Below, one piece after another: positions 51,520-56,297 of a DNA stretch of 64,000 nucleotides. Under the pieces are notes generated by a model. The model did not search any database. It saw only the letters and a list, made by a program, of their open reading frames with translations, and was not told where the DNA came from. Numbering within the stretch: the stretch's first letter is position 1; each line of letters starts with the position of its first letter. The position numbers were made by a program, and so were the translations under genes. Origin of the DNA: Proteinivorax hydrogeniformans (GTDB lineage Bacteria > Bacillota > Proteinivoracia > Proteinivoracales > Proteinivoracaceae). The DNA is taken from assembly GCF_040515995.1 (NCBI RefSeq), contig NZ_CP159485.1, positions 62,001-126,000 of the forward strand, written 5' to 3'.

Positions 51520-51999
51520 GTGGTTGTTTTAATGGTATGCTTTGTACTATTGTTGGCTTTACTGTTAAGAAACCCAAATTTTACTCATAAAACCAACCTA
51601 AAGTTTTTTACAAAAGCAAGCTATGACATATCCCTAGAGGAAATGTCTTTTTCCTACGAAAGAATAGTGTATTACACTTCTATACCAAACCTCAATATAA
51701 AACCAACACTATCAACTTTAAAAGAAAAATATGTAAAGGCAGGTTTTTTAGACCCTGAAGTTATAGCCATTCAAATTTATCATAAAGAGGGGGACAATGA
51801 AAAATTAGTAGCGGAACTGCTACAAAAGAGGTTCGATGTACCCACTCTTGACAGCTTGCTAGGAGAAGGTCAGATAACACAAAAGGAAATGGAAAGACTA
51901 AAAAAGATTAAGTTTTACCATAAAACTACTATAGATATGTTAAAAAAAGAAGTGTTAAACAGGATAACCAACGAGCAAGAAATTAGATTAAATGCCTAA
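51520..51999 (+). CDS. Unknown protein with one N-terminal membrane helix
   Basis: I do not recognise this 159-aa protein. It has a membrane helix at about 1-16 (VVLMVCFVLLLALLL), a short linker with SYDISLEEMSFSYERIVYYTS, and a helical, charged C-terminal part (about 65-155) with LVAELLQKRFDVPTLDSLLGEG and TQKEMERLKKIKFYHKTT. No cysteine cluster or catalytic motif is apparent. GTG 51520 has CGGGGGGATG just upstream. It lies between the GGDEF gene (32 bp before) and dusB (14 bp after), so it is probably cotranscribed with dusB. Confidence 0.7.
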   Translation: MVVLMVCFVLLLALLLRNPNFTHKTNLKFFTKASYDISLEEMSFSYERIVYYTSIPNLNIKPTLSTLKEKYVKAGFLDPEVIAIQIYHKEGDNEKLVAELLQKRFDVPTLDSLLGEGQITQKEMERLKKIKFYHKTTIDMLKKEVLNRITNEQEIRLNA

Positions 52000-52013: not shown

Positions 52014-52982
52014 ATGGACTTTCGCGCCACATTTAGTAAAAACCCACTGGTGTTAGCACCGATGGCAGGTGTGACAGATTATGTATATAGAAATATAGTA
52101 AAGCAACATAACTGTGGATTAATGTATACCGAAATGGTTAGTTTAAAAGGTTTGATATATGATAATAAAAAAACAAAAAAAATTCTTGACTTTACCGACC
52201 AACAGCGCCCCATAGTTGCCCAGGTTTTTGGGAGTAAACTATCAGACTTTGAGCGTGGGATACCGATAGTAGAAAGCTCAAAAGTGGATGCAATAGACAT
52301 CAACATGGGTTGCCCCACTCCTAAAATAGTTAAAAATGGAGATGGTGCAGCCCTCTTAAAAGACATTTATTTAGCTGAAAAGATTTTATTGACTACCATT
52401 AGGTCTACCAAATGTCCTGTCACTATAAAAATAAGATTAGGATGGGATGAAAGCAATATTGTAGCTAAGGACTTTGTTAAAATGGCAGAAAATGCAGGTG
52501 CAGCTGCAGTAGCTATCCATGGCAGAACAAGAGAACAATTTTATTCCGGCAGTGCAAACTGGGATAGGATAGCGGAGGCTAAGGCAGACACCTCAATACC
52601 GATATTAGCAAATGGTGATGTTTTTAAACCTGAAGATGTCGTAAAAATAATGGAGTATACCGGGTGCGAAGGAGTTATGATCGGTCGAGGAGCCATGGGA
52701 AATCCTTGGATTTTCAGCAACAGCTTAAATCTACTGGAAAAAGGCCATTATAAACAGCCATCACCCCCAGAGATTATTGAGCAAGCAATTGTCCACCTTC
52801 AAAAGCAGGTCGATTATTTTGGGGAAACTTTGGGTGTAAAGATGATGCGAAAGCACATTGCTTGGTATCTAAAAGGGCTTTCTGGATCAGCAAAAGTTAA
52901 ACGAGAGATACACAGTACAGATAAACTAAAGTGTGCTCTAGAAATCTTAGAAAAACACAAAAAACAATTAGAAAATAGCTAA
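52014..52982 (+). CDS. dusB: tRNA-dihydrouridine synthase
   Basis: FMN enzyme that reduces uridines in the tRNA D-arm. 322 aa TIM barrel plus helical tail: LAPMAGVTDYVYRNIV near 13, GSKLSDF near 78, DINMGCPTPKIVKNGDGAALL near 94 (catalytic Cys in MGCP), KIRLGWD near 140, HGRTREQFYSG near 170 and MIGRGAMGNPWIF near 221. Starts after AAGGAATGATG. Its neighbourhood dusB ... greA-lysS matches the Firmicute order. A terminator follows. Confidence 0.95.
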   Translation: MDFRATFSKNPLVLAPMAGVTDYVYRNIVKQHNCGLMYTEMVSLKGLIYDNKKTKKILDFTDQQRPIVAQVFGSKLSDFERGIPIVESSKVDAIDINMGCPTPKIVKNGDGAALLKDIYLAEKILLTTIRSTKCPVTIKIRLGWDESNIVAKDFVKMAENAGAAAVAIHGRTREQFYSGSANWDRIAEAKADTSIPILANGDVFKPEDVVKIMEYTGCEGVMIGRGAMGNPWIFSNSLNLLEKGHYKQPSPPEIIEQAIVHLQKQVDYFGETLGVKMMRKHIAWYLKGLSGSAKVKREIHSTDKLKCALEILEKHKKQLENS

Positions 52983-53003
52983 AATTAGCTATTTTCTTTT
53001 TTT
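52971..53003 (+). terminator. Terminator of dusB
   Basis: GAAAATAGCT/AGCTATTTTC with a 6-nt loop and a long T run, overlapping the dusB stop. Confidence 0.88.
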
Positions 53004-53049
53004 ATATAGGCATATTTATTGAGATAACAAATAAAATAAAATATAATAA

Positions 53050-53070
53050 TTGTATACAAAAATGTGCACA
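53050..53070 (+). promoter_or_regulatory. Twin palindromes, candidate operator
   Basis: TTGTATACAA (53050-53059) and TGTGCACA (53063-53070) are perfect palindromes 3 bp apart, 20 bp before the HTH gene start. They may be the binding site of that regulator. Confidence 0.45.
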
Positions 53071-53090
53071 ATAGAATAGGAGGAAAGCAA

Positions 53091-53612
53091 TTGGAGCTTT
53101 ATAGGATAAATGATAAAACCGTAAGTAAGCAGAAGATAGTAGAATATGTGGGTGCTATACTGGACTTAAGGGCCAAGGGCCTATCTCAAACAGAAGTATC
53201 TAATAAGCTTAGCTTAGACAGAATCTTCATATCAAGGCTAGAAAAGCTTGGAGAGCTGCGAAAGGGCAAGAATGTTGCTGTTATAGGCTTTCCTATAAAG
53301 AATGTCCAACAAGTTCAAAAGCTTTCCAATAAGTTTGGTGTAAACTTTACTCTATTGTTAAGCGAAAAGCAAAGGTGGAGCTTTGTTGACAACAAAGAAG
53401 GGGTTGACCTGTTTAACCAGATTTTAAAACTAGTTAGCGAACTAAAAAGCTTTGATGTAGTAATTGTCATTGCCTCTGATAAAAGAATCCGTCAAATTTC
53501 TGCCTTGTTAGATCAAAAAATAATACCTTACCCTATTGGAAGCTCTCCTATCAAAGAGGATATAGTGGTTGACATTAAGAGGTTAGAAGGGTTGCTTGCT
53601 ACACTATGCTAA
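53091..53612 (+). CDS. HTH transcriptional regulator of the AAR-like cassette
   Basis: 173-aa protein with an N-terminal helix-turn-helix (about 10-55: YVGAILDLRAKGLSQTEVSNKLSLDRIFISRLEKLG) and a C-terminal alpha/beta domain (about 60-170) starting VAVIGFPIKNVQQVQKL that may bind a ligand. TTG 53091 has AGGAGG 7 nt upstream; an earlier ATG at 53064 would translate across the second palindrome and has no ribosome site. The next gene starts 17 bp after. I recall this regulator next to 'quinate 5-dehydrogenase' genes in other Clostridia. It probably controls this cassette. Confidence 0.78.
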   Translation: MELYRINDKTVSKQKIVEYVGAILDLRAKGLSQTEVSNKLSLDRIFISRLEKLGELRKGKNVAVIGFPIKNVQQVQKLSNKFGVNFTLLLSEKQRWSFVDNKEGVDLFNQILKLVSELKSFDVVIVIASDKRIRQISALLDQKIIPYPIGSSPIKEDIVVDIKRLEGLLATLC

Positions 53613-53628
53613 AAAGGAGTTGGCTATT

Positions 53629-54549
53629 TTGAAAAAGGTTGTAAGCGTAAGTTTAGGCTCAGCAGCAAGAGACCATAAGGTTTATACAGAGATATGTGGT
53701 CAAAAAGTTTCTATCGAAAGAGTAGGTACAAATGGAAACGTTGAACAAATGATAGAAATTATTAAGGATTTAGATGGTAAGGTAGATGCTTTTGGATTAG
53801 GAGGAATGGATTTATTTCTGATGGCTAATGGGAAAAAGTACATACTAAAGGATGCTGAAAAAGTTATCAAGCACGCTAGAAAAACACCTATAGTTGATGG
53901 ATCTGGTTTAAAAGGGACTTTAGAAAAGCAAACTCTTAGATACCTAAATAAGAATGGGTTTAGTTTTGAGGATAAAAAAGTGCTATTAGTTTGTGCATTA
54001 GATCGGTTTGGTATGGCTGAGGAATTACTTGACATGGGAGCTAAAACGATATATGGCGATTTGATGTTTAGTTTAGGGATTCCAGTAAAAATAACATCAT
54101 TAAAAACTCTTTCAAAAATTGCAAATGTAGCATTGCCTGTTGTACGGCATTTGCCCTTTAAAATGCTATACCCAACGGGTGACAAACAAGAGCTTAGTTC
54201 TGAAAGGTATAGCGAAGTTTTTAAGTGGGCTGAAGTCATAGCCGGAGATTTTCACTTTATTAAAAAGCACCTTCCCTCCAATCTTAAAGATAAAACAATT
54301 ATTACAAATACAGTTACTTCTGAAGATATAGAACTGTTAAGACAGCGAAAATTAGACACATTAGTAACTACCACTCCAGAACTCAATGGCCGCTCTTTTG
54401 GTACAAACGTTATGGAAGGAGTTTTGGTTGCGCTAGACAATAGAAAAAACCAAAACTACAGCAGCCTGTTAAAAGAAGTTGGTTTTAAGCCAAGGGTAGT
54501 CCGGCTAAGTCAGCATTACAAAGGTTACAGGGGGTTATCTCATGGATAA
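53629..54549 (+). CDS. 'Quinate 5-dehydrogenase'-type protein of unknown activity
   Basis: 306-aa cytosolic protein of a clostridial family usually named quinate 5-dehydrogenase, a name I regard as unproven. Conserved-looking blocks are VSVSLGSAARDHKV near 3, VDAFGLGGMDLFL near 52, KTPIVDGSGLKGTLEKQTLRY near 85, LLVCALDRFGMAEELLDMGA near 122, YGDLMFSLGIPV near 143 and PFKMLYPTGDKQE near 183. No classical GxGxxG NAD loop is obvious. TTG 53629 has AAAAAGGAG 9 nt before it; an ORF start at 53596 would overlap the regulator. It overlaps the next gene by 8 bp, so the two are translationally coupled. Confidence 0.72.
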   Translation: MKKVVSVSLGSAARDHKVYTEICGQKVSIERVGTNGNVEQMIEIIKDLDGKVDAFGLGGMDLFLMANGKKYILKDAEKVIKHARKTPIVDGSGLKGTLEKQTLRYLNKNGFSFEDKKVLLVCALDRFGMAEELLDMGAKTIYGDLMFSLGIPVKITSLKTLSKIANVALPVVRHLPFKMLYPTGDKQELSSERYSEVFKWAEVIAGDFHFIKKHLPSNLKDKTIITNTVTSEDIELLRQRKLDTLVTTTPELNGRSFGTNVMEGVLVALDNRKNQNYSSLLKEVGFKPRVVRLSQHYKGYRGLSHG

Positions 54550-55645
54550 TAAGTTTGCCTTTATAATTCACCCCATAGATGTAGCTGACATGTCAAGAAA
54601 ATTTAAATTTTTAAAGAAGTTGCCAAAAAGCGCTGTGGAAAAGGGAATTAAACACTTGCCGCCAATAAAAGTATCTGATATAGAAGGTGTGGAATCAAGA
54701 TACAACAAACTAGAAGGAAACTTTGTTGCTTGTACGTTAACATCGAACCAAATAGCATCTTTACCCACCAAGTTTGTACTAAAAAAAATAATTAAAGCTG
54801 GAAGGTTATCAGAAAAAATGGGGGCTAAAATATTGGGACTAGGTGCTATGACATCAGTAGTTGGCGACGCTGGAATAACAATTTCAAAAAACTTGAATAT
54901 TCCTGTTACAACTGGCAATAGTTATACTGTAGCCTCAGCTATCGAAGGAACTAAAAAAGCAGCTAGCTTAATGGGCCATAGTCTAAATAGTTGCGAGATT
55001 ACTATTGTAGGAGCTACTGGGTCAATAGGGTCAGTGACGGCCAGGATTTTGGCTAGGGAAGCAAGAAGTCTAAACCTTATTGCTAGAAATCAAAGAAGAT
55101 TAGAAAGGTTAGCTAAAATAATACTGCAGGAAACTGGGACTCCAATTAAAATACCGACAACGTCTAAGGAAGGCATAAAAAAAGCTGATATAATCATATC
55201 GGTTTCTGGTTCAGTAGATTGTGTAATTAATCCAGAAGATATAAAATCAGGAGCTGTTGTTTGCGACGTTGCTAGACCCCGAGACGTATCTCAAAAGGTA
55301 CAGGCAGTACGCAATGATGTGTTTGTGTTTGAAGGCGGTTTAATCAATGTGCCTGGAGATGTGGATTTTAACTTTAACTTTGGTTTCCCTCCAAAAACAG
55401 CTTATGCGTGTATGGCCGAGACAATGATTTTAGCTTTAGAGAATCGTTTTGAATCCTATACACTAGGAAGAGACTTATCAGTAGGGCAAGTGGATGAAAT
55501 AAATAAACTAGCAAAAAAACATGGATTCACCCTAGGAGGGTTTAGAAGCTTTGAAAAGGCGGTAGATGAAAGCGAGATTGAAGAAATAAAAAGAAATGCG
55601 TTGGTAAATTCACTAAATTTGAAAAAATCTATTGCTAAGGTTTGA
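54542..55645 (+). CDS. Acyl-ACP-reductase-like (AAR/COG5322-type) dehydrogenase
   Basis: 367-aa NAD(P)-dependent enzyme resembling cyanobacterial long-chain acyl-ACP reductase over its whole length: ILGLGAMTSVVGDAGITIS near 98, VTTGNSYTVASA near 120, Rossmann loop IVGATGSIGSVTARIL near 155, IARNQRRLERL near 180, PGDVDFNFNFGFP near 276, and YACMAETMILALE near 293, whose Cys aligns with the thioester-forming Cys of AAR; GRDLSVGQVDEINKLAKKHGF follows near 315. This suggests reduction of an acyl- or aminoacyl-thioester to aldehyde. The substrate is unknown. It overlaps the preceding gene and ends where the greA promoter begins. Shikimate-dehydrogenase-like naming of homologues is an alternative. 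Confidence 0.75.
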   Translation: MDNKFAFIIHPIDVADMSRKFKFLKKLPKSAVEKGIKHLPPIKVSDIEGVESRYNKLEGNFVACTLTSNQIASLPTKFVLKKIIKAGRLSEKMGAKILGLGAMTSVVGDAGITISKNLNIPVTTGNSYTVASAIEGTKKAASLMGHSLNSCEITIVGATGSIGSVTARILAREARSLNLIARNQRRLERLAKIILQETGTPIKIPTTSKEGIKKADIIISVSGSVDCVINPEDIKSGAVVCDVARPRDVSQKVQAVRNDVFVFEGGLINVPGDVDFNFNFGFPPKTAYACMAETMILALENRFESYTLGRDLSVGQVDEINKLAKKHGFTLGGFRSFEKAVDESEIEEIKRNALVNSLNLKKSIAKV

Positions 55646-55670
55646 CAAAATATATCCTGTCGATTATAAT
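55642..55670 (+). promoter_or_regulatory. Full-consensus promoter of greA
   Basis: TTGACA (55642-55647), 17 bp, TATAAT (55665-55670), starting at the end of the upstream gene. The greA start lies about 145 nt downstream, so the mRNA has a long leader with hairpin AAGCACT/AGTGCTT (55677-55683 and 55699-55705). Confidence 0.92.
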
Positions 55671-55820
55671 ATTTGCAAGCACTGAAGGGTATCTCTTTAG
55701 TGCTTGTTATTGTATTCGTTGTGGTAAAAGTTGTCACCAATAGAAAGTGTATAATTATTGCCGCTTTTACATATCATTGTTTAACAGAGACAATTTTTAC
55801 TGATAAAGGAGAGACTTATA

Positions 55821-56297
55821 ATGGAAAACGGAAAAGAAGTAATATTAACACCTAGTGGGTTACAAAAGCTAGAAGAAGAACTAGAGTACCTTAAATCTAC
55901 GAAAAGAAGAGAAGTAGCAGATAGGATAAAGGTTGCTATAAGTTACGGAGACATCAGCGAAAACTCTGAGTATGAGGATGCAAAAAATGAGCAAGCTTTC
56001 GTAGAAGGGCGTATATTGACTGTTGAAAAAATGCTACGGAACGCAACTGTGATAGACGAAGAAGAAGTAAATAAAGAAGTTGTTAACGTTGGATGTACTG
56101 TCGTGCTTAAAGACTTAGAGTTCGATGAAGAATTAGAGTACACCATTGTAGGATCAGCAGAAGCAAATCCCAACGAAAACAAGATATCTAACGAGTCTCC
56201 TGTAGGCAAAGCTATACTCGGCAAACCTATCAACAGCACTGTGGATGTAACAGTACCAGCTGGAAATATAAAATATAAAATATTATCAATTAGTTAA
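55821..56297 (+). CDS. greA: Transcription elongation factor GreA
   Basis: Stimulates RNA cleavage by backtracked RNA polymerase. 158 aa: N-terminal coiled coil (about 1-78, [38 protein letters not shown] with the acidic tip) and C-terminal FKBP-like domain (about 82-158, [18 protein letters not shown]). AAAGGAGAG before the ATG. Driven by a perfect sigma-A promoter and followed after 56 bp by lysS, as in many Firmicutes. Confidence 0.96.

Follow-up and report, generated by a model that had tools for sequence, protein, structure and literature searches.

A putative self-regulated operon for fatty-acyl-thioester off-take in Proteinivorax hydrogeniformans and its anaerobic relatives

In our study, the window (the whole stretch of 64,000 nucleotides of Proteinivorax hydrogeniformans that was analysed) was found to contain a cassette of three genes, encoding a probable helix-turn-helix regulator (REG), a conserved protein that is a 'quinate 5-dehydrogenase' in name only (QDH) and an acyl-thioester reductase (AAR). 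As far as sequence and models tell, the cassette is fairly likely to be a self-regulated off-take of fatty-acyl thioesters. The regulator, its operator, the regulon and the QDH family appear to be new, whereas there is precedent for the conversion of acyl-ACP, through an aldehyde, into an amine.

Organization of the locus

The cassette lies between dusB and greA and contains the following features.

52014-52982: dusB, the gene 5' of the cassette
52970-52997, + strand: terminator-like hairpin 3' of dusB, a 12-pair stem followed by TTTTTTATAT
53019-53047, + strand: putative sigma-70-type promoter TTGAGA-N17-TATAAT (11/12 consensus), just 5' of the operator
53051-53070: candidate operator TGTATACAAAAATGTGCACA, a tandem pair of palindromes 12 bp apart, located 3 bp after the -10 box, at the promoter +1
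53078-53083, + strand: ribosome-binding site AGGAGG for REG, read directly from the sequence
53091-53612, + strand: REG, putative HTH regulator with a C-terminal alpha/beta-like domain, 173 aa, TTG start
53629-54549, + strand: QDH, conserved protein of 306 aa, TTG start
54542-54549, + strand: overlap of the QDH stop and the AAR start, exactly 8 bp
54542-55645, + strand: AAR, acyl-thioester reductase of the AAR/PigE N-terminal-domain family, 367 aa, ATG start
55010-55030, + strand: NADP(H)-binding loop G157-ATGSI-G163 (GATGSIG; GxxGxxG) of AAR, by alignment to 6jzq
55409-55411, + strand: codon of Cys290, the predicted acyl-accepting nucleophile of AAR, by alignment to 6jzq and 4ppm
55821-56297: greA, the gene 3' of the cassette

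The tight packing of three + strand genes, the last two overlapping, had been described in an earlier sequence-only reading and was borne out. The overlap is likely to couple the translation of QDH and AAR, and an overlap or a short gap between these genes was also found in most relatives. The automatic ORF call for REG begins at the GTG of 53064, within the operator; the TTG behind AGGAGG was taken as the start. Because the terminator-like hairpin closes dusB, the cassette is separate from it, and these signals make REG-QDH-AAR a single transcription unit that has a promoter of its own. The greA promoter (12/12 consensus) begins at the last AAR codons (55642-55670). No RNA element was found in the Rfam search.

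Conservation of the cassette

A sample of 398 genomes of the phylum was surveyed, in which E below 1e-55 was taken as a strong AAR match and E below 1e-11 as an AAR-family protein of any kind. By raw counts that ignore kinship, QDH was present in 186 of the 188 genomes with a strong AAR, the two exceptions being 78% and 84% complete; an AAR-family protein was present in about 236 of the 290 QDH genomes versus 6 of the 108 others (again raw counts, kinship ignored). For the adjacency count, 29 relatives were picked on the AAR score alone. AAR adjoined QDH in 26 of these loci, and the other three genomes (G128, G059, G131) carried QDH elsewhere. The conserved co-occurrence of the three genes that the earlier reading had called for was thus found, and judged by gene arrangement REG-QDH-AAR is a real operon across most anaerobic relatives of Proteinivorax hydrogeniformans. 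QDH and AAR are both missing from G039 and G386; since these two fragmented assemblies keep the dedicated aminotransferase described below, the missing genes are probably assembly gaps, and this co-loss was not used as evidence. A contig scan for relatives turned up only five.

The three genes could also be housekeeping passengers of the dusB-greA-lysS region with no common function, as the dusB/coaX/greA/lysS neighbourhood is itself conserved; we regard this as highly improbable, given that the cassette has its own promoter and terminator, that QDH-AAR or REG-AAR pairs also occur away from dusB-greA (L084, L164), and that the operator is common to unlinked AAR fusions.

The acyl-thioester reductase

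The best NCBIfam match of AAR was PigE, to whose N-terminal part residues 4-353 were matched (7.7e-61, 206.5 bits); the cut-off of the PigE equivalog NF053554 (two-domain with aminotransferase, >850 bits) was missed at this score. The match to the acyl-ACP reductase family TIGR04058 (4.3e-33) reached 115.1 bits and fell short of the curated cut-off of 449.7 bits. A sequence search of the PDB returned 4ppm (PigE) and 6jzq, 6jzu and 6jzz (cyanobacterial AAR). The AlphaFold model of AAR (pLDDT 89, pTM 0.89) matched 6jzq first in the PDB structure search, over the full-length fold (TM 0.74-0.75, E 5.8e-23), followed by the TAD of the carmabin pathway (TM 0.73), after which the matches fell to about 0.3-0.4.

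Cys290, in the ACMAETM sequence (C-(M/F)-A-E context), was aligned with the nucleophile Cys294 of cyanobacterial AAR and with the Cys of PigE, and was retained in 50 of 53 AAR orthologues. The GATGSIG loop was aligned with the NADP loop of 6jzq; its G157 and G163 are invariant in the orthologues and G160 is present in 52 of 53. The ARNQRRL motif was aligned with ARNQERL of the cyanobacterial enzyme, which uses NADPH; in both, the motif (ARNQxRL) comes after strand two of the NADP domain. The sequence-only reading had recognised an AAR-like reductase with a Rossmann loop and had placed the Cys at the nucleophile position, and both assignments held in the alignment to the solved AAR. Unlike the cyanobacterial enzyme, to which it is about 25% identical, the window AAR lies in an operon with REG and QDH. 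Alignment and model place AAR firmly among the thioester reductases of the acyl-ACP-reductase/PigE type. Its homology to AAR, PigE and TamH makes it quite likely that it forms an aldehyde from a fatty-acyl thioester, and the earlier proposal of an aldehyde-forming reaction is supported to that extent.

The QDH protein

QDH was found in 290 of the 398 sampled genomes (about three quarters) at roughly 50% identity, and 45 columns were invariant across 64 sequences. No relatives of QDH were found in Pfam, NCBIfam or the PDB. It did not match Shikimate_DH of Pfam, and in place of the GxGxxG loop, which is absent, it contained CALDRFG; the earlier doubt about the name 'quinate 5-dehydrogenase' was well placed.

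The QDH model (pLDDT 88, pTM 0.85) gave, among the PDB matches listed, a best TM of 0.50 to TAD, an AAR-fold domain. In an alignment of QDH and AAR by profile and secondary structure, GLGG56-59 fell on GLGA99-102 and P87..DG91 on P121..TG125, and in the same register G128 fell on G163 and E263 on E293. Counting back from E263/E293, Asn260 of QDH occupies the position of Cys290 of AAR; the automatic alignment gaps there. QDH is probably a divergent member of the AAR fold that has neither the Cys nor a classical NAD loop, as the model and the alignment suggest. A common origin with AAR stays at the level of inference, because the sequence-only alignment was insignificant (z about 1.4); hhalign gave no match between the two.

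In roughly 50 surveyed genomes, QDH was kept without an AAR-family match, and therefore it is not simply the partner of AAR. The earlier suggestion that the middle protein is the partner enzyme of AAR was revised on this count and on the finding, given below, that the partner is mostly a class-III aminotransferase. Three other roles for QDH were considered and set aside. QDH co-occurred with SpoIVA (271/19/65/43), yet SpoIVA was missing from 19 QDH genomes, of which several are at least 90% complete; a sporulation role was not adopted, as the link with SpoIVA is therefore probably one of ancestry. A role as dipicolinate synthase was rejected at the TM of about 0.3 of the Foldseek matches to DpaA, and a role as CRISPR RAMP/Cas7 was rejected on scores far under the cut-offs.

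The regulator and its predicted operator

REG matched HTH_3 with an E of 0.0067 (16.9 bits versus a cut-off of 23 bits), and its profile search returned matches among solved HTH regulators. The interval 53050-53070 had been pointed out beforehand as a candidate regulator site, and the comparison across loci strongly supports this role. The operator consensus TGTNNACAnnnnTGTNNACA, with 0-1 mismatch, was present 5' of REG in 56 of 72 loci, and the half-site WTGTNNACAW was present upstream of REG in 48 of 72 loci versus 2.2 expected after shuffling. With up to one mismatch, the operator occurred as a single copy in the window, where 0.1 was expected. A stricter form, TGTNNACAnnnnTGTGCACA, was found in 143 of the 398 genomes, and its reversed-pattern control in 0.

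Cassettes without REG occurred in 12 genomes, and the strict operator was found in 0 of these 12. No REG was found genome-wide in nine of them; in the remaining three (family f12), REG was located elsewhere with no operator of this form, and in G020 it stood directly before an aminotransferase-AAR fusion (see below). The exceptions to this joint pattern are G046, where an operator lies before the fusion, and G334, which is 79% complete; both carry operators and REG was not found in them. From this distribution, REG very probably binds the operator at 53051-53070. REG probably represses the operon until a lipid-related signal frees it. The window genome contained only one perfect operator. Further REG sites in this genome were rejected as near chance, six sites with one mismatch being found versus three in the reversed control. 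A literature search on the operator word returned nothing on point and no paper describing it.

The third slot and the aminotransferase-AAR fusions

The protein in the third slot was found to be diverged, with loss of the Cys, in some lineages. The Cys was substituted by Ser in L085, by Trp in L015, L019 and L020, and by other residues in L086, L087, L103 and L104; in the tree, these Cys-less proteins sit on long branches. The slot was empty in L076, L077 and L080.

When the AAR profile was run on fifteen genomes, most of which have a slot AAR that is weak or diverged, every one proved to carry an aminotransferase-AAR fusion (867-1033 residues in the open frame); in 14 of them the fusion is located away from QDH. 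Fusions following QDH were found in G352 and G220 (L097, L106) and in G348 (L084), and G155 has a fusion in tandem with a standalone AAR. The fusion reductase domains formed one clade of the tree, separate from the standalone AARs including the decayed slots. The lone odd row of the tree, SLOT_L115, represents the truncated end of the fusion in G155.

The repeated appearance of Cys-less slot proteins on long branches would fit a device in which the products of all three genes serve to sense the acyl-ACP/NADPH state, AAR catalysis being secondary or lost; the wider retention of QDH than of AAR, and an operator 5' of fab genes in one family, are consistent with such sensing. We hold it to be quite unlikely, since the well-conserved orthologues retain the Cys and the NADP loop and a decayed slot is often accompanied by a catalytic-looking fusion under the same operator.

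The aminotransferase partner

Among the 27 standalone-AAR genomes outside the family of the window organism, 24 encode a dedicated class-III aminotransferase, with 51-66% identity to the G146 enzyme, compared with 2 of 32 AAR-less genomes, as raw counts that ignore kinship. The latter two are G039 and G386, fragmented assemblies from AAR-bearing families. In the window's family, the best aminotransferase was about 48% identical, belonged to another clade and scored best as a putrescine aminotransferase; in the window genome, the closest aminotransferase was without an operator.

By these occurrences, AAR is most often partnered by a class-III aminotransferase, which may be fused to it, split from it or encoded remotely, and not by QDH. 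Transamination of the aldehyde is well supported by the gene content of most relatives, a statement not extended to the window organism. An amine is a reasonably probable product in the relatives. In the window organism it is possible at best, and it is not established there because the aminotransferase is of the putrescine type without an operator and the perfect operator is single.

The predicted regulon in relatives

Of 14 loci with a remote aminotransferase-AAR fusion, 8 have the operator, with at most one mismatch, no more than 120 bp before the start of the ORF, namely L162, L163, L166, L168, L169, L173, L174 and L175. It was also present 5' of the fusions L237, L240, L245 and L253, before the split aminotransferase and AAR operon (L241, G087) and L242, and before the lone aminotransferase of G146, whose AAR sits in the cassette. 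In the AAR-less families f52, f64 and f39, the operator precedes an alpha-oxoamine synthase, and likewise in f117/f5, where the slot is decayed. This synthase is closest to serine palmitoyltransferase (1.5e-122, under the cut-off), and a zinc MDR dehydrogenase, threonine dehydrogenase-like, is mostly next after it. In four genomes of f31, the operator lies 25-71 bp 5' of fabH in fabH-fabK-fabD. This placement points to a regulated branch of fatty-acid metabolism in the relatives that had not been described before.

The same placement weighs on an alternative in which AAR and QDH form a two-enzyme unit on a non-lipid thioester (aminoacyl or polyketide), like PigE, the fatty-acid link being incidental. 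The best NCBIfam match of AAR is to PigE rather than AAR, its fold includes the carmabin TAD, annotated in an amino acid adenylation protein, and its Rossmann part resembled glutamyl-tRNA reductase in the NCBIfam search. We consider this alternative unlikely, as the operator stands at fabH-fabK-fabD and at the serine-palmitoyltransferase-like gene, the neighbourhoods examined contained no recognisable NRPS/PKS genes next to the cassette, and the cassette is spread through most of the phylum, which sets it apart from a secondary-metabolite gene.

Proposed pathway

Under fatty-acyl off-take, REG bound to the tandem palindrome would cover the promoter start point and repress the operon, and a lipid-related signal would release it. 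A fatty-acyl chain carried by ACP or CoA would be transferred to Cys290 of AAR, which would use NADPH to reduce it to a fatty aldehyde. In most relatives, the class-III aminotransferase would convert the aldehyde to a long-chain amine. The window's family is without this dedicated enzyme, so its aldehyde may be passed to a general putrescine-type aminotransferase or elsewhere. In AAR-less lineages, the operator would drive the serine-palmitoyltransferase-like enzyme and the dehydrogenase, which would likewise use up an acyl thioester; in one family, fabH-fabK-fabD would be under the operator. QDH, as a core gene in nearly all arrangements, may act at a common step or signal.

More tentatively, REG, QDH and AAR might be the core of a new, regulated pathway of anaerobic Bacillota, spread across the phylum, from fatty-acyl-ACP to long-chain amines or sphingoid-like bases. 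REG would then be the first of a new group of regulators responsive to lipids, and QDH would represent a new class of AAR-fold enzymes with Asn260 replacing the nucleophile.

Comparison with known systems

Cyanobacterial AAR works with an oxygen-dependent enzyme, aldehyde-deformylating oxygenase; none was recognised beside the cassette. The nearest sequence family of AAR is that of the PigE/PtTamH/TmFusion fusions, and the fusions of relatives stand under the same operator; the window AAR differs in having no aminotransferase domain, and the standalone AARs are a separate clade. PtTamH, a fused aminotransferase/thioester reductase, converts acyl-ACP to a C12 aldehyde and then a C12 amine with NADH and L-Glu (PMC9594044), and in PigE the reduction of a thioester precedes transamination (PMC8341465). 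The thermophilic TmFusion, TsFusion and TfFusion are known as aminotransferases, the reductase half being unassayed in that work (PMC10829540). The sections of these three papers that were consulted make no mention of QDH, REG or the operator. The 'undescribed route' of the sequence-only reading accordingly stands in part: the steps from acyl-ACP through aldehyde to amine are known from PtTamH/PigE, and the regulator, operator, regulon and QDH appear to be undescribed. Literature searches for 'quinate 5-dehydrogenase' with AAR, and for AAR in Firmicutes, returned nothing on point.

The carmabin TAD (9e4u, 9e4s, 9e50) has the AAR fold, with a TM of 0.73 to the AAR model and of 0.50 to the QDH model; it is annotated within an adenylation-domain protein, and the identity is low. 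The operator target of AAR-less relatives resembles serine palmitoyltransferase with Kbl/Tdh, in that an alpha-oxoamine synthase is paired with a threonine-dehydrogenase-like MDR enzyme. The relatives' proteins scored 409/640 and 145/458 bits versus the NCBIfam cut-offs, and the pair is absent at the window locus. A functional analogy only may be drawn with FapR/FabT, as the REG operator stands before fab genes in one family and before acyl-consuming enzymes in others; to our knowledge, it is unlike operators of the FapR/FabT type.

QDH, a widely kept family without database relatives, now has a setting in which its role can be tested. Through the operator, one can approach a regulon that would join acyl-thioester reduction and transamination to an alpha-oxoamine synthase and to fatty-acid synthesis. 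Anaerobic, mostly spore-forming bacteria are predicted to form fatty aldehydes and long-chain amines with no part played by aldehyde-deformylating oxygenase, and the literature search found no paper on such a pathway in these bacteria. COG5322 provided the link to the fusion literature.

The acyl-thioester reductase (AAR) in the third position of the cassette contained serine or tryptophan instead of the nucleophilic cysteine at L085 (genome G018), L073, L074 and L109, and the adjacent MAETM/MAETL residues were conserved. These AARs are possibly pseudoenzymes. In G155, one perfect operator preceded two tandem genes, the first encoding an aminotransferase-AAR fusion and the second a standalone AAR (L173:7183-10987).

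Outside the dusB-greA interval, the gene named quinate 5-dehydrogenase (QDH) was found near genes that appeared glutamate mutase-like (cobalamin-binding subunit and partners) at L177, L178 (G059) and L184 (G128). G059 contained a second, diverged QDH copy.

In the window, the gene at 51520-51999, flanked by a GAF-GGDEF protein gene and dusB, encoded a 159-aa protein with no Pfam or NCBIfam family. In three different lineages, the interval between dusB and the regulator gene REG contained a member of a 320-aa protein family for which no Pfam match was clear:

Members of the 320-aa family between dusB and REG
L042:1516-2475, family member
L043:4381-5349, family member
L090:10465-11427, family member

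Upstream of greA, a sigma-70 promoter (12/12 consensus) began on the last codons of the window AAR, followed directly by a terminator-like hairpin (55675-55707); promoter and hairpin together span 55642-55707, and greA may be subject to attenuation.
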